From Physcia stellaris (Eukaryota > Ascomycota > Lecanoromycetes > Caliciales > Physciaceae), in assembly GCA_018902385.1 (NCBI GenBank), contig JABSSW010000084.1, positions 1-64,000 of the forward strand: DNA of 64,000 nt, given 5' to 3'. The notes below the pieces were generated by a model. It did no database searches, was not told the origin of the DNA, and was given only the letters and a program-made list of their open reading frames with translations. Both the position numbers and the translations under genes were made by a program. Shown here in pieces: positions 1-64,000 of the stretch (position 1 is the first letter of the stretch; every line of letters begins with the position of its first letter).

Positions 1-2700
1 AAAACGACAACAACAATAAAAATTCAGAAAAAAACATGAATGATATATCAAAACGACGTTTAACAATCATAAATCAAATTATTTAATAATTCAACAACGT
101 ATTGAATTATTTACAATTTAAAATTTCGATATCAATCGATATTTTCAACATTTTTACATCAATTATGAAAAAACAATCGACATCAAATCGAAACAAATCA
201 AACGATTTTATTTTTTTATTAAAAACGAACAATCGAAAATATCGACGTGATATGAATCGATATTTTTTTCGATAAAATTTTTTGTTACATGAACGTTCGA
301 AAAAAACATCGATTACACGATAATGTTAAAAAATCATCAAACGACGAAAAAACAAAAAAAAATTAATGATGAACATGCATATTTGATGAAACGAATTTTT
401 TTTTATTTTCAAACATTAATATTCAATGAATGTATCAAAATCAAATTAAACGTTTGAACAAAACATAATTTCGATGCGATCAACGATTTTATTTTGAAAA
501 TATAAAAAATGCAAACGAATGTTTGAACGCAACATAAAACGACATTCGAAAATCATAAATGTATCGCAAAATTTCGAAACGCGAATCGTAAAATTATTTA
601 CATAAAAAATATGCAAATACATTAACGTCAACACAAATGTACGATTCAATCGACATTTTTCGATTTAATGCAATTTACAAAATCAAAAACATAATGATTT
701 CGTATTATAAATTCGAAATTATTGTCAATTTTCATCAATTGATTGCGAAATTGTTACACAATCATGTTTTCATTCGTTTTAATTACGAAAATTTTGAATC
801 GAAAATAAATAAAAACGTGTTAATTATCATGATAAAATTAACAAATGTTGTGTAATTTATTTCATTTATCGTCGACATTATAATCATCGCGATTTACGAC
901 ATATTTTTCAAAAATTTCAAAAATGATTTCGATTTTCAAATGTACATCAAAAACATATTCAATAAATTTCGTTTTGTTATGATATTTTTTGTAATCACAA
1001 TTATATATCATGCAATTAAAAAGTATTTCGCGAATGATAAAAAAACAAACATAATATTCGAAAATTTAACGATAAAAATATGTTACGTGTTATTTCGATT
1101 TTTTACATTATTAATATGCAACAAACAATTACGAATTTTACATATTAATTTGAAAAATTTAAATTTTCAAATTCAAAACGAAATTTGCAAATATTTTCAA
1201 AACAAAATCAAAATCGAATCACAATCAACGCAAAAAACAATGAAATTTCAAAAATTATTTCATTGAAATGTGATTATTTCATCGAAACAATCAAAATTTT
1301 GCGAAACAACAAAAAATTGTTTCGCGTTTTTACATCAAACAATTTTCAAATTGATATCAATAATTCGAATTTGATCGATGAAATCGTCTAATCGAAAAAT
1401 TAATGTCAATTATAACAATATTATATCATGTTTTTGAAAAAAATTTGATACGATTTCGAATTTTCGTTTTGTTTTCAAATTTTTACAAACAATGATCGCG
1501 TGACATTAATTGTCGAAAATTCGAATATCGATTCATTGAAAACAAAAAAAAGCAACGAAATAAAAAAAACAAATTCAATACGAAAACGAAAAATTGAAAA
1601 ACGTGTCGAAAAATTGATAAATCGAATTCACACATGCGATGTCAATGTGTTTATTGTTCAATTATAAATAACAAAATATAAAAAACGCAAATTTTGAAAT
1701 CGAATCGTCGAAAAAATGAAATTTATCATTTTATTGAACAACAAAGCGATCAAAAATGAACGTTCACGTACGATTTGAATTGATAAACATGATGTAAAAA
1801 AATGAATGTACAAAACGAAAAAATATTTGAATATATTTTGTATCGAAAATTCTGATTTATCAAAACGAATGAAAATTACAATTCAATGAAAAAAAAATTG
1901 CAAATAAATTATAAAAAACGTTTCGAAAAATCAATAACGATGCAAAAAAATGTAATTACGAAAACGATTTAATATATATTGAATACAAATTTTGCATTTC
2001 GTGTTTGATAAAAACAATCAATCAAAATTTAATTGATAATTTAACACGAATCGATAAATTCAATAATAAAAATGACGTTAATGATTATTTTAAAACAAAA
2101 ATTTCAAAGCAAACGCAAAATGAAAAAAAGAAAAAATATTTGATACGACAAAAACGAAACAAATTGTCAATAATTTTGATATCAAATTAAAAAACGATTT
2201 GAATGTTTAAAACAAAAAAACGAAATGAATGAAAAAATCATCAAAAAAAAAATGATTTTCAAAACAAAATGCATGAAAAAACAATAATCAACAAAACAAA
2301 AAAAATATCAATCAAAAAATATGCGAAAAAAAATGAATTCATTTAATGCGTTTTGAAACATTTTGAAACAATTCAATGTTTCAAATGTGAATTTTGAATC
2401 AACAATGAACGATTGAAAACAAATTTCAATTGTTTGAAATTTGTTTTTGACGAAACGTTGTTGATTTGAAACAATGAAAAACAATAATTTTAATTATTTG
2501 ATTAAACGATTCGAAACAAATTTTAAACGTCAAAATCAATCGAACATTTTTTTCGACGTTTTTTTATTTTTGAAATTGTTGTTCGAATCGACGTTTAAAT
2601 ATCGTTTTTTCGTTTTTTCGTTTTTCGATTTGTATTTTGATGACGATTTCTTTGCGTCATTTCAAATATAAATAAATTTATTTTGATTTTTATTCATTTT
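1..2700. other. Unclassified AT-rich repeat debris with short plus-strand frames
   Basis: No family recognised. Short plus-strand frames lie at 637-855, 940-1266, 2005-2190 and 2474-2671. The first two are adjacent, in compatible order, and rich in I, N, K and F, as mutated coding DNA elsewhere in the window is, so they may be parts of one decayed plus-strand gene. I see no RT, integrase, transposase or helicase motif that I trust. CpC, CpT, ApG and GpG are almost absent, as in the known elements downstream, so this was probably repeated DNA too. Confidence 0.35.
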
Positions 2701-4319
2701 TATTTTTACATAATTCATTTTCATTATCAATAACAAATGCTCATTGTAATTTAAATAATGAAATGTTTATTGTAATTTATAAATCGATAACGTGATGACG
2801 ATTTCATTCATTGTTACGTTTTCAATATGAAATGAAAAAAATTAATTTTCAATTGTTCGAATCGATATTAATTTGTCGTCGTTGAATAAACGTTTTTTCG
2901 CGTTCATTACATGATTTTTTTTTGTTTCATTTGCGATTCATCGCGTTCGTTGTTTGTTTTCAATAAATGTATTGAATATTTAATTAACGTTTTGACGCGT
3001 ACACAAAAATTCATTGCGATTATTTTTTATTTTTTTTTTCAATATTATTTTGAAACAATTTGATAAAAATGTTTTTCGTGTTTAAATTGTGTTTTGTTGA
3101 CGTTGACAATTTTGTACAATATTAAAATTGTTAACAATAAATTTATTGTTTTTTTTATTGTTATTATTGAAACACGCAATGATTTCGCGTGACATCAAAA
3201 TCAGAATTATAAATTTGATTTGATTTCGTGATTTCGTGTGTTCATTTTTGTAATTTTTTAAATGTGTTCTGAACACGTTTCGTGTAAAATGTTGTATGAA
3301 ATACGTTAAACGCAAATTTAACGATATCGAACATAAAATATGTATTTTACGTTTTCAATTAATCGCGTTGATTTACACAATGTTTTTGATCATTCACGAC
3401 GACAAATGTTTTACGTGCGTGTCGATGCGTAAATTTTACATATCATTTTTTTTTTGAAAATGTTCGTCGAATTCAACAATATTTGATGATTTTGACAATT
3501 GCAATAAAAAACAAACGCACGAATTTGATATTCAATTTGCAATTGCGTTTGAAAAATGCAATTGTGAAAATTCAACAACATTTTACAAAACAAAAAAATT
3601 AAATCAACATTGTTTTATTGAGAATTTGTTGTTGCGTTTGAAATTTCGATTCGTTAATATTAATGAAATTTTACGTTTTATGATCGATTCGTTTCGCGTC
3701 AATAAAAAATTTTCAATTATGCGTTTTGCGAATTTTTCGAATAAAAAAAAACGAAAATCAAATTTTTGTTGATGTTGAAATTATAAATTTCGACGAAAAT
3801 GATCGTCGAATAAACGTGATAATCGTTTTTGAACATTATTTTTTATCAAAATCGAACAAATCGTAATCAATCGAAAAATCGATACGATAAAAACGAAAAT
3901 AAAATTCAAAACGATGTTTGTTGTAATTGACAAATTTTTGTTTGTAATTTTTTTAACATAAAAACGACGACGAATTGAAAAAACATTGTATGAAAAAATT
4001 AATTGATAATTTCAACATGTTTATTAATCATTTGTACATATTCAATGCAACGACACAATTGTTAAAAAAAAAAAATGAATTTTGTTGATTTTATTATTTG
4101 TGAAACAATTTATTGTAAAAAAATTCGCATTTGAATTTTTTTTTGTTACAAATCGTTTTTTTTTTGAATTTCAAATTTAATTTCGCAAAATTTCGTTTGA
4201 ATGATCGTTTTTTTTTTTTCGAACGAAAAATGACAATTGAATTTCGACACGTTTTCGCTTAAACGTCGTCAACGTTTTGTCGATTTTATTCAAATTTTTT
4301 AAATTCAAATTCAAAATCA
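2701..4319. other. AT-rich stretch, nothing recognised
   Basis: Minus-strand frames at 3082-3315 and 3411-3593 carry no recognisable motif and look like shadows. By position this could hold earlier gag-pol sequence of the Gypsy element whose RNase H starts near 4987, but I could not see reverse-transcriptase motifs in any frame. Confidence 0.3.
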
Positions 4320-8260: not shown

Positions 8261-9060
8261 TTGATTGAAATGAAAGAAAAATTCGATATCAAAATCACGT
8301 TTCTCGAAATTCTGAAAACGTATGAAGAATTCGATAACGAAAATAAAATTTACGAATTATCGAATTATGATTCAGATAATCATGCTATTGATTTAAAAAA
8401 AAACAAAAAATCGTCGCATAAATCACTTTGTTTTTTATTTAAAAATAAATTTCAAATTTTACGTGTTTATATCGAAAAACATTTAGTTAACGATTTCATT
8501 CGATTTTCACAATTTTTTGCAAAAACGTTCATCTTGTTCGTCAAAAAAACGATAATTTTCGACTGTGTGTAAATTACAAAAATCTCAACGTTTTCACGAT
8601 AAAAAATAAATATTTTTTTTCGTTAATAAATAAAAATTTAGATAAATTCAACAAAGTCGTCAAATATATTATTATCGATTTGATTGTTGTTCATCATCGA
8701 TTGCGTATTAAACATGAAAACGAATGAAAAACAATTTTTCGTATTCGATATGATCATTTCGAATATAACGTATTTTGTTTCGATTTCATTAATGTTTCGA
8801 CGACGTTTCAAAATTTCATCAATCGAAATTTGACGATTCGTTTCGATATTAACGTCATAATATATTTGAATGATATAATAATTTATTCGATAAACGTCGA
8901 AATTCATGTTGACGATATCAAATGAATTTTTGATCGTTTTGAAAAAAATTATATATTGTTTTTGAGAAATGCAAATGATTCGTTGACGAAATAAATTTTT
9001 TGAATTTGTCGTTTCATTCAAAAAAATACGAATGCAAAATCAAAAAATCGAAATCATTAA
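8261..9060 (+). pseudogene. A: reverse transcriptase remnant
   Basis: The frame 8261-8572 carries the conserved Gypsy RT N-terminus: NHAIDLKKNKKSSHKSL, then DFIRFSQFFAKTFILFVKK. Further plus-strand RT segments follow to about 9060, including the palm region. RT copies the element RNA into DNA. The same segments occur at 52346-53060, 19907-20650 and 24968-25870. Broken at several places. Confidence 0.8.
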
Positions 9061-9094
9061 AAAATGATTTGTATTTCGCAACGTTTTTGACATT

Positions 9095-9735
9095 ATGCAA
9101 TTTTTCGATATTGTTAATTTTTATCGACGATTCATTAAACATTTCAATAAAATTGTTGAATTTTTGATCGTTATGTTAAAAAAATCGCAAAAATTACGAA
9201 AAAATATTCGTAAACGCAAACGAAATCAAAATCGAAATCGCAACAAATTATCAAATATTCATATTTTTTTGATCAACGAAACGTTGAAAATTTTCAAACG
9301 ATTTCGTAAAACATTTATCGAAACATCAATTTTACGTTATTTCGATTTCGAACGTGTTATTCGAATCGAAATCGACGCATTCGACAAAATTATCGAAATA
9401 ATTTTATGACAACAAAACGACGAAAATTATTGACATTTTGTTGCGTATTTTTCACGCAAAATGATTTCGATCGAATGCAATTACGAAATTCATGACAAAA
9501 AATTGTTGATCATTGTGATTTCGTTCAAACAATGAAAACATTATTTCGAAAACGCAAAAAAACAAATTTGTGTTTTTATTGATCATCGCAATTTGAAACA
9601 ATTTATGATCACAATTAAATTGTCGTCACGTCAAATTCGATGAATTCAAAAATTAAATCGATATAATTTTTTAATCGATTATCGTTTCGATAACAAGAAT
9701 TTTGTTGACGAATTTTCAAAACGATTTGATCACAT
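9095..9735 (+). pseudogene. A: RT thumb and RNase H remnant
   Basis: The frame 9095-9409 reads IVNFYRRFIKHFNKIVEF, the typical RT thumb, then the connection and the start of RNase H (IRIEIDAFDKIIEI, near 9360-9400). The RNase H end follows to about 9735 (LIDYRFDNKNF-like). It has a basic run of K and R near 9195-9245. Also present at 53095-53700. Confidence 0.75.
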
Positions 9736-9943
9736 GATAATTATTAAAAAAAACGTCGAAAACAATCGTTAAATTTTGAAACAATTGCAAAAATCATTGA
9801 TCGCAAACTCGAAAAAATGCGAAAAAATGCGAAAAAATGCGATCAAAATCATAAATACGATGTATGTCATGAAACAATTCATGAATACGATGCATAACAT
9901 GAAACGTCGATCGCATTTAAATGATTCAACAATCGAATCAATC

Positions 9944-10045
9944 AACGTTGTTTCGAAAACATTTGATTCAAAAAATTCAAAACGAAATCGAATTTCAATT
10001 AACGTTGTTTCGAAAACATTCGATTCAAAAAATTCAAAAATTCGA
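9944..10045 (+). repeat. A: 57-bp tandem repeat in the RNase H-integrase linker
   Basis: A unit of 57 bp, starting AACGTTGTTTCGAAAACATT, is present nearly twice (9944 and 10001). In frame it gives a 19-residue repeat (NVVSKTFDSKNSK core). The same repeat is present in the second copy near 53838-53935, so it predates the duplication. Just upstream, near 9810-9841, a 10-bp unit (CGAAAAAATG) is repeated three times; the second copy lacks this extension. Confidence 0.7.
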
Positions 10046-10129
10046 AACGTTCGATTGAAAAAAAGCAAACGTGATATTCATAAAATGAAAAATTTTTGTA
10101 TTAAAATCAACGATTGTATTTGAATGCGC

Positions 10130-10837
10130 AATGCATAAAATTCGAATACAAATTGTTTTACGAGAAAAAACGACATATAACGACGAATCAACATTTTCAT
10201 TGTTGAATTTCGTTCGAAATTTGATCGTTAAAAATCAATTCGTTTTTAAAACATGTCGAAAATTAATTATTTCGAAAACAAAAACAAATCATTGACAATA
10301 CAAAAATGAATTTTTGTATTACGACGACGTTATTTACATTTCAAAAAATTTGCGTGAAAACGTTATTCGTATCAATCACGATAATTCGTTCATTGATTAT
10401 TTCGACATCGAACGAACACTAAAATTGATACGTCGAAAATATTATTGATCGAATCAAAATTTTATCGAAATTTTTGAAATGCGACAACAAATCAAAAAAC
10501 ATTGTAAAACATGCGTCGTTTGCAAACGAAACAAAATTTCACGACACAAATCATACGACGAATTTTTTTTTTAATTTTTAAATTTAAATGAATTGATTTT
10601 TTTATGAATTTCGTAACAAAACTTTTTTCTAATAAAACGTGAAATGAAACAATTTACGATTCGATTTTAATGATTGTGAATCGTTTAACGAAAATAATTC
10701 ATTACATATCAATGATTAAAACGACTTTCGCAAAAAATTTGATCGAAATTTTATTTCGCGAAATCATTCGATTTTACGATTTTTTTTTCGTCAATCGTTA
10801 TCGACAGAAATTTCATTTTCATATTCAAATACAACGA
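10130..10837 (+). pseudogene. A: integrase remnant, cut by element D
   Basis: The plus strand shows an HHCC zinc finger (CVVCKRNKISRHKSY near 10513-10557) and the start of the catalytic core (IVNRLTKIIHYISMIKT, from 10670). The similarity to the second copy at 54060-54760 stops at about 10837, where sequence matching the inverted 3' LTR of element D begins. The last codons of the open frame to 10858 therefore belong to D. Confidence 0.75.
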
Positions 10838-11022
10838 TGTATCATGAATCGCGTTTGAATAAACGTATGATTGATTAATTAAACGAAAACAATAAGTTTG
10901 CAAAACAAATAAATACAAAATAATGAAATTGTAAACAATGTGCGAACGTTAATTTTAAATCACGCTAATTTCGTCAAAAAATTAAAACATAATTCGATTT
11001 AAACATATTTGTTTAATCATTT
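10838..11022 (-). repeat. D(-): 3' LTR
   Basis: Reverse-complement match to 61389-61563. Read on the minus strand it ends CGATTCATGATACA at 10838. Shared blocks include an inverted GTTTTCGTTTAATTAATCAA and, just inside the element (11030-11060), AATTTGACAAATAAATAATTG. Confidence 0.65.
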
Positions 11023-11899
11023 ATCATATCAATTATTTATTTGTCAAATTTATTTATCAAACATATTCGTAATATTATTATTTTTTTCGCGAACGTCGTT
11101 TCGACGATTTGTTGTTATTTCGAAATTTGAAAACGTTATTGAAAATTTCGTTGATCAAATTGTACAATTGCAAAATTCAAACATTTCACGATCATCATTT
11201 TTCATTTTTTGATATTTTATTGTCATTTCAACGTTCGATAAAATTTGACGACAATTTTTGAAAATGTTTTTGACACGATTCAATTTTTTATGCGATGTAA
11301 ATTCTGACTGTAAATAACATCGAAATGATAATAAAATTTGAAATTTTGAATAAAAATCGTGAAATCAAAAACAAATGAATGAAAATCGAATTTGTGACGT
11401 CAAATGTTAATCGAAAATAATTTTTATTAGTGTTAACATGACGATTTTTTTTCGAAAACAACGATGATTCGTTGAAAAATTTGATTCGTCGACGATAATT
11501 TGAAATATTAAAATCGACGTTTTGAATTATTTTAAATTTGTTGTCATGAAATGATTACGATGAAAATTGTTTATCATATCGCGAACATTATCAAATTTTT
11601 CGTTGTCGACATAATATTACGTTCGATCATGAAATCAATTTGATCAATTGACACGATATTGAAAACGATTGTAATGATATCGAAATTTCAAAATATCGTT
11701 CATTTTTCATTCGAAATTTTCGTTGATTAAAACGAAATCGAAAAATTCATTGATTTGATTTTCGAAAAAATCACGAAAATTTTTGCGAAAAAAATCACGA
11801 AAATTTTTGCAAAAAAATCAACAATGAAACACATCGTAAATTCGCATAATTTTTGACAATTCGAATCGATAAAAATTGTTTTTACGTTTTAATATTTTA

Positions 11900-12700
11900 T
11901 ACGAATTTAATTTTTTGTCATCAAATTTGTCAAATGATTTGATCGTTTTGATGTTTCGTCAATTCAAAAAAACGAAATTTTTTTCGACGTATTTCACGAT
12001 TTTTCGATGTTTGTTGATTTGAATTATTATACGTTTTTGAATCATTTTTGCATGATTTCGTACGTAATTGAAAATATTTTGCATCGTGTCGATAATATTT
12101 TCTGTTTTGACGATCAAAAATCGTTTTTTCGTTATAACATACAAAATAAAATCTAATGAAAAATTCATACGAAAATAAAAATTTTTATTAATGAAAAATA
12201 AGAATAATTTTATTGTTGCAAATATCGCGTTGTTGTTTACAAATTCGATCATAAACAATCAAACGTTTTAATCGTTTTGCATGTAATTGCAATATTATCG
12301 CAATTGTTTTTCGATATTTTGATTGATTTTTTCGATTTGTTTATCGATTTTTGAATAAAAAACGATGAAAAACTTACATTTGTTGTCGAAAATTTTGCAA
12401 AATGTTTGTCAAACGAATGATATGAATTGAAATTTTCGATTTGACGTTATAAAAAATAATAATTCATACGTACGAAACACGTAATTGATAAATATTTTGA
12501 TCGTGATTTTCGCATTTGTATTTTCATCGTCGACGATACAAAATACGTAATGACGTTTTTTGTTAAATTTGTCGATTATCGTGCAAATGATATTGTGATC
12601 GTAAACGTCAAACAATTCGATAATAAAATTTATAAATATGTCGATTCAACGTTGCAAAAAATGATCAAAAAAATGAATAAATCATTTTTTCGATTTTTGA
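11900..12700 (-). pseudogene. D(-): integrase remnant
   Basis: Minus frames 12409-12615 (MFDVYDHNIICTIIDKFNKK, integrase core) and 11959-12258 (IEFVNNNAIFATIKLF; later QKRIIIQINKHRKIVKYVEK) match the plus copy at 59810-60480. Order and spacing fit a Gypsy integrase core followed by its C-terminal part. Broken. Confidence 0.7.
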
Positions 12701-12884
12701 AAATTTTCGTACGTTAACATTTATAACAATTGCGTACGTATCGACGAACGAATTTGCGTATATTGAATCAATAATAATCACGACGTATAAAATTTTTTAT
12801 ACGATTGAAATTTGAATGTTTCGAAATCGAAAATTTATGAATTTTTTTGAAAAAATCAACGAATAAAAAAACGTCGACAAACAT

Positions 12885-13157
12885 TCATAATTGATTATTT
12901 CGATATAAAATATCGTTTTTTTTATTGCAATTTCGTGAATCGATTTCGTTCATTGATATGAAATTTTGTTTGATAATTTCACGATATGTCGTGCAATTAT
13001 CGTCAATTTTATTGACAATCAAAATTCGTTCGTAAATAAATTTGTCAAATTTTATCGCGTGAATTTCGAATCGTTTCGAAATAAACAATATTTGTTTTCG
13101 ATATTGATATTGTTCATCAATTTCGATTTTGAATTGAAAATCAAATATACGAATCAA
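12885..13157 (-). pseudogene. D(-): linker between RNase H and integrase
   Basis: A 90-residue minus frame (QYRKQILFISKRFEIHAIKF) matching 59267-59539 in the other copy (QYKKQMLFISKRFEIHVVEF). This is the low-conservation segment before the integrase zinc finger. Confidence 0.65.
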
Positions 13158-14612: not shown

Positions 14613-14711
14613 TGTTTTGAACGCGAAATCGATTTAATTGATCGTAATGAAAAAACATTGCATTTTTTATTTTTTATTTTTGAAATCGACGAATAAACAA
14701 AAAAAAATGCA

Positions 14712-15032
14712 TTAATTATCGCGATATTTATTGAATCGTTTGAATTCAATTTCGATAATGAAAAAATTTCGAATTGTTGTTTTTTGATTTTTCAACGTTT
14801 GTTGCGTTGTTTTTTCAAATTTTTTTTTGATAAATGTCGTTTTCGTAATTGTTGTGATATCAATTTTTGAATTATTTAATTCGATGATTGACGATTCGTC
14901 ATCGTCATCGACGTTCGAATGAATTGAACATTCGAAACATTTCGAATCGAATACATTTGATTCATTCTCAATTGTAAAAAACAAAAATTTGATTTTGAAA
15001 CGAAACAAAATGATATATCGAAATTTTATCAT
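14712..15032 (-). pseudogene. D(-): segment between protease and RT
   Basis: A minus frame beginning MIKFRYIILFRFKIKFLFF, with an acidic-serine stretch, matching 57303-57587 in the plus copy. No catalytic motif is visible; by position it is the spacer between protease and RT. Confidence 0.55.
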
Positions 15033-15329
15033 CGTTATATGTTTCGAATTGTTTTTTTGCGATAATACGATATCACGACGTCAATTAAATACATTTTATC
15101 GACGATTTGATTTGAAAATTTTCAAACGTCGAATTTGAACAATTTGATTGAATATATTGTCATGATAATTGCATTTAAACGATTTGAAAATCAATTTATC
15201 GTAAATCATGTTCAATATAATTTCATGTTTGTTTATTTACGATTTTTTTAAAATTATCGAATGATTATTCAAATCGATAATTAACAAAAAAATAATCAAT
15301 TCGAAATGCAATTTTATTGTTAATTTAAA

Positions 15330-15570: not shown

Positions 15571-15696
15571 TTATCATTGTGAATAAAAAAAAAATTTAAA
15601 TATTCATCAATCGCGTTTTTGATGTGAATTGTTAATTTTTCGAATCAAAATCATTCGATTCGACGATTAAATTCATGTACGATATTTGCATTTTGT

Positions 15697-16640: not shown

Positions 16641-16644
16641 AATC

Positions 16645-19130: not shown

Positions 19131-19139
19131 AAAACTAAA

Positions 19140-20650: not shown

Positions 20651-20685
20651 AAAAAAACAAAATCAAAAATATTCGAAATTGATTC

Positions 20686-50703: not shown

Positions 50704-50843
50704 TGTCAGAATTCAAATCTCGAAATTAGTTTTATATTTTTGTCACGTGATTTAAACGATTTTGACGTTTCAATATGTATATAACGAATTCAAATTTTCA
50801 ACATTTTTAGCAATACAATGCGTTTTATTTTTTACTTTTGACA
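50704..50843 (+). repeat. Copia copy 2: 5' LTR (140 bp)
   Basis: TGTCAGAATTC...ACTTTTGACA. It keeps five CpT or ApG sites (such as CAG, CTC, TAG, ACT) that are TpT or ApA in both LTRs of copy 1, so it is the least mutated Copia LTR here. Confidence 0.9.
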
Positions 50844-51030
50844 AATTATGAATTCGAAAAAACGAATAATTTATTTGTAATTTTCGTATCAAATTAATCG
50901 TTTAAACGAACGAACGTTATTATTGTTTTTATGTCAAAATTCAATACATTTTTACGAAATTTCTTTTTTAAAAATTTTTCAAAATCAAAAATTCATTGCA
51001 TTGCAATGAAAAAATACAATTTCAAAAAAC

Positions 51031-52161
51031 ATGAATTTTGAACAAAAAAACAAATTTCAAAAATGTTATCGAAATTCGTTCGACACAATTGAACAAAAAC
51101 AAATTTCAAAAATGTCGAAAAAATTGAACAAACGATTAAATTTATTTTTTATTCGCGATTTGTCGTTTTCGTTAAAAAGCGCATTGATTAATGAAATTGC
51201 AAACAAACAAATTATTGATGAATTCATTCAAACGATATGTATTAATCATGTGATTTTGTGAAACGATTGATATCGCAATTGATTAACGAAATTTGAAACG
51301 CGTTTAATTTCGTCAAAATACGAATGTCGAATCGCTAAAAACATGCAAAATTTTTTCAATTTCAATTTTTTCAATTCATTTGAAATCGTATTGCGAAAAA
51401 TGAACATCACAAAAATTCGAACAATTGATTTCGAACAATCGAAATTCGAATTCAATTAATTTTTTTATTATTTTCAGTCAAACGAATCACAATTGCGATT
51501 CACAATAATTTCGTATTGATTTATTAAAATCAATAATCGATCAATTGTTGAACAATTTCAAAAACAAAATTGAATTGAAACGACAAATGATTTTGATCAA
51601 AATTTTAACGCAATTGCATATTTCAATATCACGAATTTTGATTCATTCGATAATTTTTCAATTATTCGATTTGTTAAAAAAACAAATAAATTGATTCAAA
51701 AAAACAAATTCGAAAATTAAAAACGTGTCGCATTGAACATTGTTGCAATTAATGCAAAATCGAATCAAATTGAAATCATTCAATCATTCAATATTAAACG
51801 AAATTCAATTTTTTGTTTTTCAAAATTCAATCAAAAAATGATTGACATTTTAATAAATCAAACATTTGAAACAAATTCAAATTCAATAACGATTGACAAT
51901 GTCAAAACGAAAACAAAAATCATTGTCGTATCATCAAAAATTGAATTTTCAATCATCGTGAAAATCGAAATTATTGTCGCAACAAAAATTGAATTTTCAA
52001 ACAATGTTGAAACAAATGCATATAATCAAACATTTTTTTCGAAAAAATTGACAAAAAACGAAAACGTTACAAAACTATTTCAGCATTTGAAATTCAAATT
52101 TATTTTCAACAATTTATATTTACGTTTTTTTTGCAATTATTTAAAAACGATTCAAATTTAA
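51031..52161 (+). pseudogene. Copia copy 2: gag remnant
   Basis: Frames 51031-51261 (MNFEQKNKFQKCYRNSFDTI) and 51733-52161 parallel those at 28690-28923 and 29397-29855. Differences from copy 1 are mostly transitions and small indels. Confidence 0.55.
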
Positions 52162-52345
52162 TTTCGAAAATTTTCAACAATTCAATTGAAATATGTTTAT
52201 TGATTAATTTTTTTCAATCAATTTTATCAACAAAATAAAAATCATTCGTTATTTATATGTAAAACATTTCGAAACAAGATTTTCAAATATTGTACACGAA
52301 ATTGCACAAATCATAATTGATCATTTTCGCGAATCAAACGAAAAA

Positions 52346-53060
52346 AACATTGTTTTATCAATCAATTGATTTTTATTCGAAAATGAATTTCGAATATTGC
52401 GTGTTTACATCGAAAAACATTTAATCAACGAATTTATTCGATTTTCACAATTTTTGCAAAAACGTTCATTTTGTTCGTCAAAAAACGATAATTTACGACT
52501 GTGTGTAAATTACAAAAGTTTCAATGTTTTTACATTGAAAAATAAATATTTTTTTCGTTAATCGATGAAATTTTAAATAAATTCAACAAAATCGTCAAAT
52601 ATATCAATATCGATTTGATTGTTGTTTATCATCAATTGCGTATCAAACATAAAAACGAATAAAAACAGTTTTTCGTATTCGATATAATTATTTCGAATAC
52701 AACGTTTTTTTCGATTTCATTAACGTTTCGACGACGTTTCAAAATTTCATCAATCGAATTCTAACGATTCGTTTCGATATTAACGTTATAATATATTTGA
52801 ACGATATAGTAATTTACACGATGAACGTCGAAATTCATGTCGATAATTTCAAATGAATTTTTGATTGTTTTAAAAAGAATAAATTATATATTGTTTTTGA
52901 AAAATGCAAATGATTTGTTGACGAAATAAATTTATTTGAATTCGTTGTTTTATTTCAAAAAAATACGAATGCAAAACAAGAAAATCGAAATTATTCAAAT
53001 GATTTGTATTTCGTAACGTTTTCGACATCATGCAATTTTTCGACATCGTTAATTTTTATC
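52346..53060 (+). pseudogene. A copy 2: reverse transcriptase remnant
   Basis: Matches 8430-9080 with frequent small indels. Recognisable pieces include FAKTFILFVKK near 52455-52490 and the following palm segments. More decayed than copy A. Confidence 0.65.
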
Positions 53061-53094
53061 GACAATTTATTAAACATTTCATAAAATTGTCGAA

Positions 53095-53700
53095 TTTCTG
53101 ATCGTTATGTTAAAAAAATCGCAAAAATTACGAAAAAATATTCGTAAACGTAAACGAAATCGAAATCGCAACAAATTTTCGAATATTCACATTTTTTTGA
53201 TCAATGAAACGTTGAAAATTTTCAAACGATTTCGCAAAACATTTATCGAAACATCAATTTTACGTCATTTCGATTTCGAACGTGTTATTCGAATCGAAAT
53301 CGACGCATTCGACGAAATCATCGAAATCATTTTATGTCAACAAAACGACGAAAATCATTGACATTTTGTTGCGTATTTTTCGCGCAAAATGATTTCGATC
53401 GAATATCAATTACAAAATTCATGACAAAAAATTGTTGATTATTGTAATTTCGTTCAAACAATGAAAACATTATTTCGAAAACACAAAAAAACAAATTTTT
53501 GTTTTTATTGATTATTGCAATTTAAAACAATTTATGATTACAATTAAATTGTCGTCACGTCAAATTCGATGAATTCAAAAATTGAATCGATACAATTTTT
53601 TAATCGATTATCGTTTCGATAACAAAAATTTTGTTGACGAATTTTCAAAACGATTTGATTACATAATGATTATTGAAAAACGTCGAAAACAATCATCAAA
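53095..53700 (+). pseudogene. A copy 2: RT thumb and RNase H remnant
   Basis: The frame 53107-53361 matches 9175-9409 (LINETLKIFKRFRKTFIETS; IRIEIDAFDEIIEI); 53582-53779 matches the RNase H end (NFLIDYRFDNKNFVDEFSKR). Confidence 0.7.
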
Positions 53701-54059
53701 TTTTGAAACAATTGCAAAAATTATTGATCGCAAATTCGAAACGTTTCGAAAAAATGCGAATAAATGCGATCAAAATTAAATGCGATGCATAACATGAAAC
53801 GTCGATCGCATTTAAATAATTCAACAATCGAATCAATCAACGTTGTTTCAAAAACATTTGATTCAAAAAATTCAAAACAAAATCGAATTTCAATCAACGT
53901 TGTTTCGAAAACATTCGATTCAAAAAAAATTCAAAAAATTCGAAACATTCGATTCAACAAAAATCAAACGTGACATTCATAAAATGAAAATTTTTGATGT
54001 TAAAATCAACGATTGTATTTGAATGCGCAATGCATAAAATTCGAATACAAATTGTTTTA

Positions 54060-54930
54060 CGAAAAAAAACGACATATAACGACGAATCAACACAAATTGT
54101 TAAATTTCGTTCGTGATTTGATCGTTAAAATCAATTCGTTTTTGAAATATGTCGAAAATTAATTATTTCGAAAACAAAAACAAATCAATTGACAACACAA
54201 AAATGAATTTTTGTATTACGACGACGTCGTTTACATTTCAAAAATTTGCGTGAAAACGTTATTCGTGTCAATCACGATAATTCGTTCGTTGATCATTTTT
54301 CGACATCGAACGAACGTTAAAATTGATACGTCGAAAATATTATTGATCGAATCAAAATTTTATCGAAATTTTTGAAATGCGACAGCAAATCAAAAAACAT
54401 TGTAAAACATGCGTCGTTTGCAAACGAAACAAAATTTCACGACACAAATCATACGACGAAATTTTTTTTTCAATTTTCGAATTTAAATGAATTGATTTTT
54501 TCATGAATTTCGTAACACAAAACTTTTTCAAATAAAACGTGAAATGAAACGATTTACGATTCGATTTTAATGATTGTAAATCGTTTAACGAAAATGATTC
54601 ATTACATTTGAAATGATTAAAACGATTTTCGCAAAAATTTGATCGAAATCATATTTCGCGAAATCATTCGATTTCACGATTTTTTTTTTTTCAATCGTTA
54701 TCGACAAAAATTTTATTTTCACGTTCAAATCAACGACAAACTTGAAAATTTTAAATTGTTTTTTCATTTTCAAATTGATGAACAAACGAACGAATAAACA
54801 ACGTCATGAAACAATTTCTTCGCGTTTACGTCAATTTGAACAAAATGAACGTGAAATTTCAATCGTTTTTCGTTTTCAAAACAAACATATGAACAAATGT
54901 TACGAACGAATGACAAAAGATAATTTATAA
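54060..54930 (+). pseudogene. A copy 2: integrase remnant
   Basis: Matches 10140-10837: the zinc finger CVVCKRNKISRHKSYDE near 54410-54460, then the core start near 54575. Past 54760 it continues with a TDEQT-like segment (DEQTNEQ near 54780) that copy A has lost. Confidence 0.65.
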
Positions 54931-55254: not shown

Positions 55255-56720
55255 ATGATTCGCAATCATCATGAAACAATTTCATTCAATTCATTTCGTC
55301 AAAATTTGAATATCGACGAAATACAAAAAAACGTTGAACAAATGTTGAAAAAAATTCACGAAATCGATGAAAAATTCACGATTCGTTACAAATTTCGTCA
55401 ATTTTTTTTTTATTTCAAACGTTGTGTCGAATCAAAACGACGATATCACGCATTTTTTGAACATAAAAATCGTTCGTCAATTGAAATATTGAATTCAACA
55501 TCATTTCGACGATTTTTTGAACGTGTTCAATGATTTACGCATCGATCGAAACAAATATTTGATCGTTTTAAAAAATTTTCACGAATTCGTCAAATTGTTC
55601 AAAATTCAAAAAAAAAATTGTTCGATATCGATAATATTTTGAACAAATACGCGACAAATTTAAAACGTTCGAAAAAAAAAAAAAAAATGAAAATCAATTC
55701 ATTGACAAACGTATTGAATATGACGATTTGATCAAATTGAATAAAATTCGTCGTTTCGAACGTGTTTTCAATTTCGATTCAAATGAAAATTCAAACAATA
55801 TCGATGATGACGAAAAAAATTTGTTGTTGACGATTCGATCGTTACAAATTTTGTCAAATTTTCGAAAAAAAAACGCACGAACAAACATTCGAATTTCGAT
55901 AAATTCACGAACGATTTGAATTTTGATTGATTTACGTGAAAAATCAACGTTCACGATAAATTCACGATCAACAACGATTGATACGAAATTGTTCGTTTCA
56001 TGATCACGACAATAATTGATTGAATTGAAAAAAAAAACAATTAAACATATTCAATTTCGTCGATACAACAATTTGAATTATTTCGAAAATGAAATAATGA
56101 TAATCAATTTTTCGAAAACATTTATGAAAATTCAAATTATCAACGCAACGTACGTCGAAAATATCGAAATTTGATCATGTTCGACATTCAAAATTTTCAA
56201 TTTTTTTATTCGAATTTTTATCGTTTGAATATTCAAATCAATTTCGATCAATTCACGTTGATGAAAAATTTAATTGACAAATTCATCATGTCGTTGAAAC
56301 AAATTTTGAACAATTCGTTTCGTCATCATTTTATTTTGTTCGCGTGAAAAAATGACATTCAACAAATGTATAACGATTTGATCAACATTCGAAAAAAAAA
56401 ATTCGAATTCGAATTCAAAAATCAATTTTAATGATTTTCAAATCGATTTTTGTTGTTTCGATTGCAATTTCGTTTGTCAAATCAATTACGTCGACGTTTT
56501 TCGTCAAATTCAAAAACGATTATAAACATGATTCGATTATCGATCAATTGATTGTCACGAACAAATGTTTCACGTGTGAAAAATTCGATCACGATTGAAA
56601 ATTTTGTTTCAACGTCAACAAATTTCAAAAACGTCAATGACATAAATTACAAATACATCAATTGAATTTTGATATCGATTCGAGCGAATTTGATTCGAAA
56701 AATTGACAATTCACGTCAAA
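55255..56720 (+). pseudogene. D(+): gag remnant with zinc knuckle
   Basis: Opening frame 55255-55533 (IRNHHETISFNSFRQNLNID; coiled-coil-like VEQMLKKIHEIDEKF). Further gag segments run to about 56640. Near 56562-56610 a knuckle pattern CFTCEKFDHD...FC (C-x2-C-x4-H-x4-C spacing) marks the nucleocapsid end. Broken. Confidence 0.7.
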
Positions 56721-56734
56721 AACGCGATTGATGA

Positions 56735-57100
56735 ATGTTTAAAAATTTTTTTATTCACGATAATAATATGTTTGATTTTTTCATCAAACGATTTTTAATC
56801 ATCATTTGTACGTTATCATTCAACGATAATAAACATAAATTAAAAATTTTAATAAACATTGATGCAATCGATTATGCGTTCATTGATAAAAAAATCGCGC
56901 AATTTGTATGCAACATGTTGAACATGAAATTCGTATTTTTATTGAAATCGAAATCATTGATTGAATTCGACGATCGTCATGTTTTTTTTATAATTCACGC
57001 GATATATTTCAAATTGACGATAAAATTACATTTCGAATTGATCGTTTTTTTGTTAATCATTGATTTCGATAATCATTCGATAATTTTAAAAAAATCGTGA
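56735..57100 (+). pseudogene. D(+): aspartic protease remnant
   Basis: The frame 56735-57100 has LKILINIDAIDYAFIDKKI, the active-site region of a retroelement protease, then AQFVCNMLNMKFVFLLKSKS. It matches the minus copy at 15357-15569. Confidence 0.7.
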
Positions 57101-57302
57101 ATGAACAAACAAAATAAATTATAAAAATTATATTGAACATAATTTAATAAATTTTTTTGATCAAATTTACGATAAATTGATTTTTAAATCGTTCAAATGC
57201 AATCATCACGACAACATATTCAATCAAACGATGCAAATTCGTCGTTTAAAAATTTTCAAATCAAATCGTCGATGAAATGTATCGTCGATGAAATGTATTT
57301 AA

Positions 57303-58000
57303 TTGACGTCGCGATGCAAAATTATCGCGAAAAATAATACAAAACACATAACGACGATAAAATTTCGATATATCATTTTGTTTCGTTTCAAAATCAAATT
57401 TTTATTTTTTATTGTTGAAAACGAATCAAATATAATCGATTCGAAATGTTTCGAAATCAATTCAATTCATTCAAAAATCGAAAACGACGACGAATCGTCA
57501 ACAATCGAATCAAATAATTCAAAAATTGATATTACGACGATTACGAAAACGACATTCGTCAAAAAAAAAATTGAAAAATCAACGTAATAAACGATGAAAA
57601 ACGAAAAAACAACAATCAAAATTTTCGTTATTTTCAAAATTGAATTTTGACGATTCGATGAATATCGCAATGATTGATGCAATTTTTTTTGTTTGTTGAT
57701 CGATGTCAAAAATCGAAAACAAAACGTTCAATGTTTTTTTATTACGATCAATCAAATCGATTTCGCGTTCAAAACATTACAAACGAATTTTGAATCGTTG
57801 AAAATCGTCGTCATAATCAAAAAAATTTTAAAACACGAACAAATCAAAAAATTCAAAAAAAAAAAAAAAATTTCAAAAATTTTCGATATTCGAACGCATA
57901 ATGAAAAAAATATTCAAAATATTTTCGTCATTTATCAAAAATATTTGATTTTCAAAAATTATCAAATTTTTTTTTTTAAAATTATACGATCATAAAATCG
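57303..58000 (+). pseudogene. D(+): spacer between protease and RT
   Basis: Frames 57303-57587 and 57693-57995, matching 15032-14712 and 14612-14300 on the other strand. Acidic-serine then lysine-rich; no catalytic motif. Confidence 0.5.
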
Positions 58001-58085
58001 AATTTTTTAAACGATAACAATTTTTTATTTCGCAATCGAATGTATTTTTTATTCGAATTCAAATTCAAAAAAAAAAAAATATTTG

Positions 58086-58110
58086 AAAAAAAAAAAAAAA
58101 AAAAAAAAAA
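58086..58110 (+). repeat. Poly(A) tract inside element D(+)
   Basis: A run of about 25 adenines, with a shorter A run just upstream near 58069. The inverted copy has no such run at the matching place, so it is a later expansion or an assembly slip. Confidence 0.8.
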
Positions 58111-58129
58111 TTTATCGTATTTAATCAAA

Positions 58130-59266
58130 CGACATATGTTTCATTTGTTTTATTTGCGATCAAATTCAACGATCAATTACGTTTGTGTGTGAATTATCGT
58201 CGATTCAATCACATTACGAAACGCAATCGATATTTCATTTTTTTGATTGAAAAATTTTGATCAAAATTCAAAATTGCAAATATTTGATCAAATTGAATAT
58301 TATATCAATTTTCAATAAATTTCGAATGAATGAAAAAAATGAAAAATTCATCACGTTCGTCATTTTTATGAAATCGTATAAATATCGAATATTATTTTTG
58401 AATTAATCAACGATTTTGCAAATTGACAACATTACATGAATGATTTTTTGTTCAATTTTTTGAACGAATTTTGTCAAATTTATTTGAATGACATATTCAT
58501 TTACAACAAATTCAAAAAAAAACATATCGTGCACGTTCGAACAATATTGAAAAAATTCAAAAAAATCGATTTACAAATGAATATTGAAAAATGCGAATTT
58601 TTCAAAAAAATGATTTTTTTAAACGTTATATTTTCGATAAATGATTTTCGCATGAATTCAAAAAAAATACAAATCATAATTGATTGAACACGTTTTATCA
58701 ATTTCAAAAAAATACAAATTTTCGTGAATTTCGTCAATTTTTATCGACGTTTCATTCGTGATTTTTCGAAAAAAATCAAAATTTTCATTCGAATGATCAA
58801 AAAATTCGTAAAATTCGAATGAATTACAAAAGCAAAAAAAATTTTCAATTTATTCAAAAAAACGATAATCGAAATTTTCATATTTCGTCATTACGATAAA
58901 ATCAAACAAATCATTTTAAAAATCGATTTTTCAAATTACGTCAATGCGAAAATGTTATCGCAATACGATGACGAAAAAATTTTACATTTCGTTATTTTTT
59001 ACAATCGAAACATGATTTCAATCGAATGCAATTATGAAATTTATGATAAAAAATTATTGATTATTATTCGTTGTTTAAAACATTGACGTTCAAAATTCGA
59101 AAAAATTGACGAATCGATCAAAATTTTCATCGATCACAAAAATTTAAAAATTTTCATGATTTCGAAAAAATTAATTTTTCGTCAAATTCGTTGAGCAAAA
59201 ATTTTATCGAAATTCAATATCGTCATTCAATTTCAATCAGAAATTCAAAACGTTAAAACAAACGTT
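58130..59266 (+). pseudogene. D(+): RT and RNase H remnant
   Basis: RT fingers near 58165-58220 (LRLCVNYRRFNHITKRN), palm 58436-58687 (YLNDIFIYNKFKKKHIVHV; MNIEKCEFFKKMIFLNVIF), thumb near 58730 (FVNFYRRFIRDFSKK), then RNase H to about 59260. Matches the minus copy. Broken. Confidence 0.8.
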
Positions 59267-59539
59267 TTGATTCGCATGTCGAATTCACGATTCAAAAACG
59301 ATAACGACGAACGACATCAATATAAAAAACAAATGTTGTTTATTTCAAAACGATTCGAAATTCATGTCGTCGAATTTGACGAATCAATTTACGAACGAAT
59401 TTTCGTCGTAAACAAAACAAACGACGATTGTCGAACATATCGTGAAACATTCAATCAAAATTTCATTTTCGTGAATGAAATCAATTTACGCGATTGTCAA
59501 AAAAAAAACGATGTTTTATATTACAAAAATCGATTATGA
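59267..59539 (+). pseudogene. D(+): linker between RNase H and integrase
   Basis: A 90-residue frame (QYKKQMLFISKRFEIHVVEF) matching 12885-13157 in the other copy. Confidence 0.65.
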
Positions 59540-59589
59540 ATGTTCGTCGATGTTTTTTTGTTCGTTGATTTTTTCAAAAAAATTCATGA

Positions 59590-60605
59590 ATTTTTCGCAT
59601 CGAATCATTTTGAATTTAATCGCATGAAAAATTTTTTACGTCGTGATTATTATTGATTCAACATGCGCAAAACAATTCGTCGATATATACGTAATTGTCA
59701 CGAATGTCAACGAATTAAAATTTTCAAAAATCGTAAAAACGAATTATTCATTTTTTTGATTATATTTTTGCAACGTTGAACGAATATATTCATTGATTTT
59801 ATCACGAAATTATTTGACGTTCACGATCATAATGTCATTTGCACGATAATCGACAAATTTAATAAAAAACGTCATTATGCATTTTGTACAACGAAAAACG
59901 AAAACACGAATGTTGAAATCACAACAAAAATATTCATTCAATACGTGTTTCGTATTCATGATTTTTTTTTTTATAACATTTGATCGAAATTTTCAATTCG
60001 TGTTTTTCGTATGACAAATTTTTTGCAAAATTTTCGACATCAAATGTAAATTTTTCACGATTTTTCATTCAAAATTGATAATCAAATCGAAAAAATCAAT
60101 CAAAACATCGAAAAACAATTGCGACAATATTGCAATTACATGCAAAACGATTAAAACGTTTGATTATTTATAATCGAATTTGCAAACAATAACGCGATTT
60201 TTGCATTTATTGAATTATTATCGTTTTTCGTCAACAAAAATTTTCATTTTCGTATGAAATTTTTTATCGAATTTTATTTCGTATGTTATCACAAAAAAAC
60301 GATTTTTGATCGTCAAAACGAAAAACATCACGAACACAATGCAAAACATTTTCGATTATGTACGAATTCACGTCGAAATAATTCAAAAACGCATAACGAC
60401 ACAAATCAACAAACATCGCAAAATCGTGAAATACGTCGAAAAAAATTACGTTTTTTTGAATCGACGAAACATCAAAATCGTTAAATCATTCGACAAATTT
60501 GACGACAAAAAATTAAAATCGTACAAAATGTTAAAACGTATGAACAATTTTTATCAATTTGAATTGTTTGAAACAATGCGAATTTATGATGTGTTTCATT
60601 GTTGA
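59590..60605 (+). pseudogene. D(+): integrase remnant
   Basis: Zinc finger with IRRYIRNCHECQRIKIFKNR near 59675-59730, core start near 59770-59880 (FIDFITKLFDVHDHNVICTI), the end of the core near 60170-60240, and the C-terminal frame 60306-60605 (QKRITTQINKHRKIVKYVEK). Colinear with the minus copy at 11900-12700. Confidence 0.75.
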
Positions 60606-61388
60606 TTTTTTCGCAAAAATTTTTGTGATTTTTTCGAAAATCAAATCAACGAATCATTCGATTTTGTCATAATCAACGAGAATTTCGAATGAAAAATGAA
60701 CGATATTTTAAAATTTCGATATCATTACGATCGATTTCAATATCGCGTCAATTGATCAAATTGATCGCATGATCGAATTTGATATTACGTTGACAACGAT
60801 AAATTCGATAATGTTCGTGACGTGATAAATAATTATCATCGAAATCATTTTATCGTCGCAAATTCGAAATCATTTAAAATTATTATTTTTTCGTTTTTCA
60901 AATCGATGATCAAAATTCATTTGCGAATCGTCGTCGTTTTCGAAAAAAAATCGTCGTTTTGACATTCATTGAAATTACGTTCGATTAAAATTTGAAAATT
61001 TCAATTGAATTTGAATTCATTTTGATTTCATTCGTTCGTTTCAAAATTTTTTTTTTCAATTTCAAATTTCATTATTATCGTTTCGACGTTGTTTACAATC
61101 AAAATTTACGTCGCATGAAAAATTGAATCGTGTCAAAAACATTTTCAAAAATTGTTGTTCGATTTTATTGAATTTGAATTGATAACAAATATTGAAAAAT
61201 CAAAAATGATGATCGTGAAAATTTCGAATTTTGAATTCGTTCAAAACAATCGACAACGTTTTCGTTTCGAATCAACAACGAATCGTCGAAACGACGTTCG
61301 CGAAAAAAAAAAAAAATGTTACGAACATGTTTGACAAATAAATTTGACAAATGTTTAACAAATAAATTTGACAAATAAATAATTGATA
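60606..61388 (+). pseudogene. D(+): C-terminal tail, chromodomain-like
   Basis: Plus segments near 60690-60870 (FKISISLRSISISR or, in another frame, a chromodomain-like strand pattern) and frame 61152-61334. The corresponding minus-copy DNA is 11030-11900. A chromodomain is suggested by position only. Just before the LTR a 20-bp unit (AATTTGACAAATGTTTAACA type) is repeated near 61325-61385. Confidence 0.35.
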
Positions 61389-61563
61389 TGATATAATCGA
61401 ACAACGAATTATGTTTTAATTTTACGTCGAAATTAACGTGATTTGAAATTTGACGTCGCACATTGTTTGCAATTTCAACATTTTGTATTTATTTGTTTTT
61501 GCAAATTTATTGTTTTCGTTTAATTAATCAATAATACGTTTTCAAACACGATTCATGATATTT
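61389..61563 (+). repeat. D(+): 3' LTR
   Basis: Direct partner of 54935-55080 and inverted partner of 10838-11022. Ends near CACGATTCATGATAT. About 175 bp, with indels relative to the 5' LTR. Confidence 0.65.
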
Positions 61564-62560
61564 AAAATCAAATTTTTGATTCAAAATAATCAACGTAAAA
61601 ATATTTTACGCGTTTTTTTTTTCGTTTTTCAAATCAGAAATTTTGAAAATCAACAATTCATTATAACGCGTTTTATCGTTTTTCGAATTTTGAAAAAACG
61701 CAAAAGCGAAATTAAATTCGAAAATTCGCAAAAAAACAAAATTTTGAACAAATTTAAAATTGAATGACAATTTCGATTATTTTTCAATCGAAATTTTGAA
61801 TAATTTCAATTTTACAAAACGTGATTTTCAAAATCGTTTATAAAATTTTGCAATATTGTAAAAAAATTTTCATTTAAAAAAATTTCAAATTCGTTTGAAA
61901 ATCGATATTGTTCAAAAATTTAAAAATTTCGAAAAAAATAAAAAAACAATTGAAAAAATTTTTTTTACGAAAAAATTGAACGAAATTTTTTTGCAATTTT
62001 CGATTCATGTAATTAAAAAAAAATTCAAATCAAATTTGATAAAACGTGAATATGTTAAAATTTGAAAAACGCGATTGTTGATTAAAACAACGAAAAAAAT
62101 TTTTTCAAAATCGATATCGAAAAACATCAATTTTCGACGAATTTTTCAAAAAAATTTTTGAAATCAATTGCAAATAAAATTCAAATCGTACGAAAAAAAT
62201 GAACAAATTTTGATAAAAAATTTATATTTTTTTTGAAACACGATCGAAAAATTTGATAAAACGACGTTTTCAAAAATACGTTAAAAAAAATTTAAACAAA
62301 TTTTCAAAACGATGAAAATTTAAAATTTCGAAAACGATAAAAAATTCATTATGATTAAACAAAAGAAAATGCGTTTTGAATAATTTTTTTCAATGTTTAA
62401 AATTTCGAATTTTCAAAATCTGATTCAAAAAAATTTCGAAATGAATGTTTTATATTGAAAAAATTTAAACGATCTTTTTTCAAATATTAAAACGATTTCA
62501 AATTCGATTTCAAAAAATTTTTAAAAAACAATGCGTTTCGAAAAAAATTTTTGAAAATTA
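61564..62560. other. Unclassified very AT-rich stretch
   Basis: Long A and T runs with lysine/phenylalanine-rich frames (plus 61555-61767). No motif, and no match to the other elements that I could see. Copia-like sequence starts near 62565. Confidence 0.3.
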
Positions 62561-62564
62561 AATC

Positions 62565-64000
62565 GAATTCGAAAAACGAATAATTTATTTGTAATTTTCG
62601 ATCAAAATAATCGTTTAAACGAAAAAAATTATTGTTTTTAAATCAAAATTTTTACATCTTTACGAAATTTTTTTTTTAGAAAATTTTCAAATCAATATTA
62701 TTTTTGCATTGCGAAAAAAATTTGAAAAAAATACAATTTCAAAAAATTTGAATTTTGAACAAAAAAACAAATTTCAAAAAAATGTCATCGAAATTCGTTC
62801 GAATAATTGAACAAAAACAAATTTCAAAAATGTCGAAAAAATTAAACAAACGATTAAATTTATTTTTATTCGCGATTTGTCGTTTTCGTTAAAAAAACGC
62901 ATTAATTAATGAAATTGCAAACAAACAAATCATTGATAAATTTATTCAAACGATATGTATCAATCATGTAATCATGTGAAACGATTGATATCGTAATTGA
63001 TTAACGAAATTTGAAACGCGTTTAATTTCGTCAAAATGTTTGTCGAATCGTTAAAAACATACAAAATTTTTCAATTTCAATTTTTTCAATTCATTTGAAA
63101 TCGTATTGCGAAAAATCAATATCACAAAAATTCGAACAATTGATTTCGAACAGTCGAAATTAAAATTCAATCAATTTTTTATTATTTTCATTTTCAAACG
63201 ATCGAATCACAATTGCGATTCACGTAATTTCGTATTGATTTATCAAAATCAATAATCGATTCAATTGTTAAACGATTTCAAAAACAAAATTGAATTGAAA
63301 CGACAAATGATTTTGATCAAAATTTTAACGCAATTGCATATTTCAATATGAACGAATTTTGATTTTTCAAACGATAATTTTTCAATCATTCGATTTGTCA
63401 AAAAAAACAAATAAATTGATTCAAAAAAACAAATTCGAAAATTAAAAACGTGTCGCATTGAACATTGTTGCGTTGAAAAATCGAATCAAATTGAAATGTT
63501 CAATCATTCAATATTAAACGAAATTCAATTTTTTGTTTTTCAAAATTCAATCAAAAAAAATGATTGACATTTCAATAAATCAAACATTTGAAACAAGTTC
63601 AAATTCAATAACGATTGACAATGTCAAACGAAAATTGAAATCATTGTCGATCATCAAAAATTGAATTTTCAATTATCGTGAAAAAAAAATTATTGTCGCA
63701 ACAAAAATCAAATTTTCAAACAATGTTGAAACAAATGCATATAATCAAACATTTTTTTTCGAGAAAATTGACAAAAAACGAAAACGTTACAAAATTATTT
63801 CATGAAATTTGAAATTCACGTTTATTTTAACAATTTACATTTACGTTTTTTTTTGCAATCATTTAAAAAACGATTCAAATTCAATTTCGAAAATTTTCAA
63901 CAATTCAATTGAAAATGTGTCAATTGATCAATTGTTTTCAATCAATTTTATTAACAAAATAAAAATCATTCGTTATTTATACGTAAAACATTTCGAAACA
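62565..64000 (+). mobile_element. Ty1/Copia element, copy 3, gag region, runs off the window (fossil)
   Basis: Matches 28515-29960 and 50855-52290 from just inside the 5' LTR to the window edge, with many small indels. No 140-bp LTR precedes it, so it is 5' truncated. It is the most decayed of the three copies. A minus frame at 63261-63458 is a shadow. Confidence 0.8.

Follow-up and report, generated by a model that had tools for sequence, protein, structure and literature searches.

The window analysed here, comprising the 64,000 nucleotides at positions 1 to 64,000 of contig JABSSW010000084.1, is a transposon-rich and very probably heterochromatic region of a eukaryotic, most likely fungal genome. 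It contains two Gypsy elements with paired long terminal repeats (LTRs), designated El1 and El2, as well as older Gypsy copies and Copia remnants (Table 1), and other stretches are paired or tripled at 67-98% identity in self-matches of the window. At many places, open reading frames (ORFs) read in pieces with TGA as tryptophan matched domains of Ty3/Gypsy elements (reverse transcriptase, RNase H, integrase zinc-binding and SH3), and the Ty3 polyprotein from the PDB matches positions 39064-41163 (1.6e-40). The sequence bears the marks of a C-to-T process which has nearly eliminated CpC and CpT, together with their complements GpG and ApG, and whose target, direction and probable agent are described below.

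On the + strand, CC was found 4 times against 1,063 expected from the base composition of the 64,000 bases, and GG 3 times against 896. CT and AG amounted to 378 (3,028 expected) and 316 (2,920 expected), respectively. CA (4,199 vs 3,182), TG (3,584 vs 2,779) and CG (3,668 vs 976) were in excess, and TA was scarce (3,634 vs 9,062). The observed/expected ratios were 3.75 for CpG, the C context with the highest ratio in the window, 1.31 for CpA and 0.40 for TpA, at a GC content of ~25%. CpC was absent from 58 of the 64 1-kb bins, and the CpT ratio fell below 0.25 in 57 of them. The proportion C/(C+T) was 0.45-0.58 before A or G with a 5' A, G or T, but 0.000-0.005 before C and 0.026-0.042 before T; the values with a 5' C were low throughout, because CpC itself has been lost. 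The longest run free of CC, CT, AG and GG spans 3,218 bases (30343-33561) and overlaps the Copia domains, and leftover CpT sites cluster at ~15.5-18.5, 19.5-25.5, 30.0-30.5, 37-41 and 43.5-45.6 kb. A slight effect of the second base downstream was seen at CpT, with CTT below CTA, which may merely mirror runs of T. An earlier, sequence-only reading of this DNA had described a near-total loss of CpC and CpT with CpA and CpG kept, and had proposed dinucleotide counts as a check. These counts bear out the description, more strongly than had been claimed, with both CpT and CpC far below the expectation from base composition, and the stretch quoted as an example (9001-9060) is exact, containing 0 CT, 0 CC, 0 AG and 0 GG.

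An LTR element inserts with two identical LTRs, and any differences between them therefore arose later. In a BLAST alignment of the El1 LTR pair (~360 bp), all 26 substitutions were C/T or G/A, including 24 in CpT, one in CpC, one in CpA and none in CpG. Of these, 11 have T in one LTR and 15 in the other, and the C:G to T:A changes occurred on both strands. Comparison of polymorphic with conserved C gave 24 vs 8 for CpT and 1 vs 83 for C before a purine (CpR; Fisher p 5e-17). The two LTRs retain 0 and 1 CpC, and most of their CpT is gone too. A MAFFT alignment of the same pair has 28 differing columns, comprising the 26 C/T differences, one other substitution and a gap within a run of T close to the end. 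In the El2 LTR pair, 9 of 10 substitutions were C/T (7 at CpT and 2 at CpA). These nine differences are one-directional, with T always in the left copy, and leftover CpT in El2 is far denser at 44.0-45.1 kb than elsewhere in the element.

The role of the neighbouring bases was analysed in the self-matches of the window, at sites followed by a purine in one copy and by a pyrimidine in the other. When the copy with the purine had C, the copy with the pyrimidine showed T at 684 of 714 sites and C at the other 30 (136 vs 1 in the largest pair). The opposite arrangement, with T next to the purine and C next to the pyrimidine, occurred 7 times. This analysis used all 21 self-matches, which overlap and are not independent, and 17 of them yielded sites with C in the purine copy. 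With a constant 3' purine and a change of the 5' base, both copies had C at 218 sites, and a single copy had it at 48 or 41. The comparison of copies shows that the C-to-T change (G-to-A on the other strand) is set by the 3' neighbour and that the 5' neighbour has little effect. In the copies tabulated by neighbour context, which include the 17 of 21 self-matches with at least 300 columns, CpA was not mutated as often as C before a pyrimidine (CpY). The strand-symmetric, nearly saturated conversion of CpY proposed in the sequence-only reading is thus supported by the counts, by the copies and by the forward model given below.

El1 and El2 retain part-converted CpT sites, which makes the order of attack readable from the sequence. 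In the CpT-richest stretches (17126-17487, 24002-24364 and 44001-45054), C accounted for 2 of 298 C+T before C and for 104 of 629 before T, with a proportion of ~0.5 before A and G. CpC was therefore emptied before CpT, and the target order in the window is CpC > CpT >> CpA, CpG, with CpA and CpG largely spared. CpY as the target of the process stands, but CpC has been hit harder than CpT.

In forward modelling, the dinucleotide table was reproduced best, among the models run, by a random 50%-GC sequence with 99.8% of CpC and 95% of CpT converted, both values being taken from the data (Kullback-Leibler divergence, KL, 0.0034). Models with full conversion gave KL values of 0.0595 for CpY, 0.087 for CpT only, 0.135 for CpC only, 0.60 for CpG and 1.20 for CpA, and a model without any process gave 0.184. 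The CpA, CpG, CpR, CpW (A or T), CpH (A, C or T) and unspecific CpN (any base) models were rejected by the fit; they were run at fixed conversion with the starting GC alone fitted.

Under the CpY rule, C and G persist only at pyrimidine-purine steps. The elements are killed by the loss of all codons for Gly and Pro and by the change of each Trp codon to TGA. Fourteen transposon frames with 5,203 codons, which were picked by Pfam matches and include two overlapping pairs, contain one Gly, one Pro, no TGG and 97 TGA. Because GG and CC are missing, this codon usage is a necessary consequence and adds no evidence of its own. A polymerase lacking Gly and Pro would not be expected to function, and the frames are therefore dead. 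One of them was aligned to Ty3 and contains neither residue, while Ty3 carries 14 Gly and 19 Pro at the aligned sites.

The process resembles the repeat-induced point mutation (RIP) of Neurospora crassa, which involves RID and DIM-2, in the C-to-T changes on both strands of transposons, in the AT-rich remnants, in the effect of the 3' neighbour and in the second place of CpT. The order reported for N. crassa is CpA>CpT>CpG>CpC, and in Trichoderma reesei CpA~CpG stands ahead of CpT>CpC, with a sign lost in the source text (PMC5496416). In contrast to N. crassa, CpC leads in the window, CpA is almost untouched and TpA is depleted (0.40) instead of enriched. Among the hallmarks of RIP, the window shows C:G to T:A on both strands (El1 LTRs) and near-saturation of transposons and repeats (Gypsy and Copia), but not CpA as a preferred or shared target (CpA 1.31, TpA 0.40 and KL 1.20 for the CpA model). 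RIP further depends on duplication, leaves single-copy DNA alone and takes place in the premeiotic sexual phase; in the window, the stretch 15664-17120 is mutated although it has no self-match there. However, the contrast with N. crassa should not be drawn too sharply, because RIPCAL analysis revealed CpT changes overshadowing CpA in the Tad1 element (PMC2621366) and a comparatively high CpT rate was reported for N. crassa ribosomal DNA (PMC5555474). CpT also appears beside CpA in the RIP of Magnaporthe oryzae, Botrytis cinerea and Sclerotinia sclerotiorum (PMC4352252) and of Anisogramma anomala (PMC10998396), and CpT-to-TpT was the dominant form in alignments of control RIP-capable fungi (PMC7882544). 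The window shares with these ascomycetes the C-to-T changes at CpT in repeats. It differs from the fungi of PMC4352252 and PMC10998396, as described in the accessible parts of these sources, in that CpA is hardly touched and CpC leads, and a term search of both texts found no mention of 'CpC'. The sequence-only reading knew of no standard with CpY as the main target. CpT-led changes are already in print, and the published CpT-first alignment counts (RIPCAL for Tad1, and PMC7882544) mean that CpT alone is not new, but searches of the open-licence PMC literature revealed no process in which CpC is the leading target and CpA escapes. Judged from its sequence traces, the process appears to work like RIP without the CpA preference, and the CpC-led variant would be new.

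Hypermutation of transposons in basidiomycetes is of a CpG type, as reported for Microbotryum (PMC4352252), Tricholoma matsutake, which lacks rid/dim2 (PMC6980582), and Rhizoctonia solani AG8 (PMC4014442). It is likewise a RIP-like C-to-T process in fungi, but its CpG (or TpCpG) target is not that of the window, with a CpG ratio of 3.75 and 0 of 26 El1 LTR changes at CpG. In R. solani AG8, C-to-T changes were densest at CpC (one per 214 bp vs 370 bp for CpG, Table 2 of PMC4014442), although these densities refer to the whole genome, are uncorrected for the number of sites and come from authors who stress CpG; this CpC density is a possible lead for comparison. DIM-2 resembles the agent sought here in its non-CG methylation with a CpT preference, but it acts in all CpN contexts, and no CpC-first order is seen in the accessible part of the source (PMC13297926).

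We consider it rather probable that the CpC and CpT of this most likely fungal transposon region were nearly emptied on both strands by a RIP-like process which depends on an enzyme of the C5 cytosine methyltransferase type. This agent would be a DIM-2- or RID-like member of the DNMT1 superfamily, whose product or intermediate may have been deaminated through many rounds in heterochromatin. The C-to-T change itself went on after the insertion of El1 and El2. The 3'-base dependence suggests an agent of the methyltransferase type, as it is easier to reconcile with these enzymes than with known deaminases. The preference of this agent for CpC > CpT >> CpA, CpG would be new, and a role in genome defence seems plausible. 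RIP has been termed fungus-specific (PMC7882544). The proposed process is also favoured by the CpT preference described for DIM-2 (PMC13297926) and by reports that RIP leaks into the surroundings of repeats (PMC4014442). A bolder version, which we put forward tentatively and with less confidence, is a genome-defence mutator of undescribed specificity, with the first and last choices of Neurospora swapped and over 99% conversion at CpC, possibly working through a different enzyme in a mushroom-type basidiomycete without RID.

Several observations weigh against the proposed RIP-like process. CpA was not untouched: it accounts for 2 of the 9 C/T changes in the El2 LTRs, and in one three-copy family (28369-30018 and its relatives) polarised counts gave 22 C-to-T singletons vs 154 invariant sites at CpA, compared to 2 vs 118 at CpG. 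In a second, more diverged family the singleton/invariant counts were alike (36/84 for CpA and 42/112 for CpG), although its third copy is only ~70% alike, which makes the polarity crude; 41 and 246 C/T columns were set aside from the counts of the two families owing to differing neighbours. CpA is thus a weak secondary target in the first family but not in the second. Single rounds of RIP are strand-coordinated events, and no trace of such coordination remains, since the remaining sites showed no strand runs (observed/expected numbers of neighbours on the same strand 77/70.1, 88/88.0, 8/10.2, 41/38.4 and 36/40.5). At the sites of Ty3 Gly and Pro, the residues predicted by the CpY rule were found at 4 of 14 (Asp or Glu) and 7 of 19 (Ser or Phe), a low match which is expected of a distant relative and gives no strong support. 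The mutated stretch 15664-17120 has no match to the rest of the window and may reflect leakage, an unseen repeat or a process independent of repeats. Finally, the fungal origin rests on the element type, on the fungus-specificity of RIP and on one Pfam match below the cut-off.

Passive decay is the main rival of the proposed process, followed by a deaminase. Slow decay would require methylation of CpC and CpT by a DIM-2-like enzyme in heterochromatin and spontaneous deamination of 5-methylcytosine over a long period, with no active mutator. This explanation, which we regard as unlikely, agrees with the mutation of the stretch without self-match, with the lack of strand runs and with older copies being emptier than El1 and El2. 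DIM-2 indeed methylates all CpN with CpT preferred, but a CpC-first order is not reported for it in the accessible part of the source (PMC13297926). Moreover, the El1 LTRs are nearly CpC-free, yet the BLAST alignment revealed no transversion and one C/T difference outside CpY between them, which indicates a CpY rate far above background.

A DNA cytosine deaminase (APOBEC- or DddA-like) editing C before a pyrimidine in transposon DNA, without a methyltransferase, could produce near-complete conversion on both strands, but it appears even less probable than slow decay. Known DNA deaminases read the 5' base, whereas the window shows little influence of that base (C/(C+T) of 0.45-0.58 before a purine with a 5' A, G or T) and a switch of the 3' base gives T at 684 of 714 sites. 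APOBEC3G changes the second C of CC, and an edit of this kind would make CpT, which is also lost here. A deaminase with the 5'-base dependence of the APOBEC/DddA type was therefore rejected. The extreme depletion might also suggest an artefact, such as bisulfite-type conversion or errors in base calling or assembly, which we consider very improbable. Conversion chemistry marks one strand per molecule, but CT-to-TT and AG-to-AA are intermixed in one LTR pair, target duplications and recognisable pol domains are preserved, and conversion varies between elements of one contig; the artefact was rejected on these grounds. An ordinary extreme mutation bias of an AT-rich genome, as the GC of ~25% might imply, was rejected as scarcely credible, because the mononucleotide model has a KL of 0.184 vs 0.0034-0.0595 for CpY, TpA and CpG stand at 0.40 and 3.75 of expectation, and switching between copies is neighbour-specific.

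A survey of 1,239 fungal species, published in 2025, concluded that RIP-like defences share a CpA preference, with enrichment in ascomycetes alone (PMC12543289). The window runs counter to this conclusion in its target and perhaps also in its lineage. With the thresholds cited in PMC10998396, the usual RIP indices score it as RIP-free (TpA/ApT 0.41, RIP if >=0.89; (CpA+TpG)/(ApC+GpT) 1.44, RIP if <=1.03), so such genomes could be overlooked. Specificity for a pyrimidine on the 3' side would suggest an unusual cytosine methyltransferase, which would be useful for learning how such enzymes read the base after their target.

Table 1. Features of the window. The LTR ends and target duplications of El1 and El2 were determined by eye from the sequence.
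Feature	Position	Strand	Remarks
Whole window	1-64000		CpC, CpT (GpG, ApG) near-extinct; CpA, TpG, CpG retained
Frame, broken, weakly DUF6532-like	592-1509	+	20.3 bits for 856-1509; Pfam cut-off 24
Gypsy copy	8402-10837	+	89.9% identity to 52341-54736; diverged third copy near 24703-27566
Older Gypsy copy	10840-15663	-	81.9% identity to 56675-61560; CpC 0, CpT 13 (both strands)
Stretch without self-match in window	15664-17120		Between old Gypsy copy and El1
El1, Gypsy	17126-24362	+	LTRs 17126-17485 and 24002-24362 (TG...CA), ~360 bp
El1 target duplication	17121-17125, 24363-24367		TTTTC
El1 domains	19954-21303		Reverse transcriptase/RNase H
El1 domains	20627-23029		Integrase zinc-binding and SH3
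Three-copy family polarising changes	28369-30018		Other copies 50704-52352 (96.2%) and 62425-64000 (90.2%)
Copia remnants	31364-34186	+	gag_pre-integrs in 31364-31936 (below Pfam cut-off); RVT_2 in 33233-33739
El2, Gypsy	37621-45054	-	LTRs 37621-37802 and 44873-45054, 182 bp
El2 target duplication	37616-37620, 45055-45059		AACAA
Older Gypsy copy, partner of 10840-15663	56675-61560	+	CpC 0, CpT 5 (both strands)

Several Gypsy copies, Copia and the stretch without self-match have all been subject to the process, and the extent of conversion differs among the elements of this one contig, the older copies being emptier than El1 and El2. The Copia remnants contain no CpC and one CpT vs 373 TpC and 1,135 TpT on both strands. 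For the stretch 15664-17120 the corresponding counts were CpC 1 and CpT 81 vs 212 TpC and 478 TpT, so that more CpT remains there than in most of the window, though it is heavily mutated; it may represent single-copy DNA which the process reached from the adjacent elements. The sequence-only reading had the process striking Gypsy, Copia and a DNA transposon alike, which is confirmed for Gypsy and Copia by their domains, whereas the DNA transposon was not confirmed. In Pfam scans covering 67 different stretches (80 entries including re-runs), Ty3/Gypsy and Copia domains were detected but no transposase; 65 of these stretches belong to the 184 ORFs with 120 aa or more. No tRNA or Rfam family was found in the window. 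Protein and pattern searches revealed no relatives in viral contigs or genome contigs, nor among phages: in each of the two contig collections 186 stretches fitted the pattern, and none passed tblastn.

The sub-cut-off DUF6532 frame could be a host or passenger gene. When the frame was read past its stop, the match became longer, but its score fell from 20.3 to 18.7 bits. The domain is listed in two Ganoderma species (PMC8955403), and the match is a weak pointer to mushroom-type fungi, the sole hint of taxon in the window. Two inverted repeats (35920-36236 and 37208-37522) are 85% alike with ~1 kb between the arms. They might represent the termini of a DNA transposon, although no transposase was recognised.

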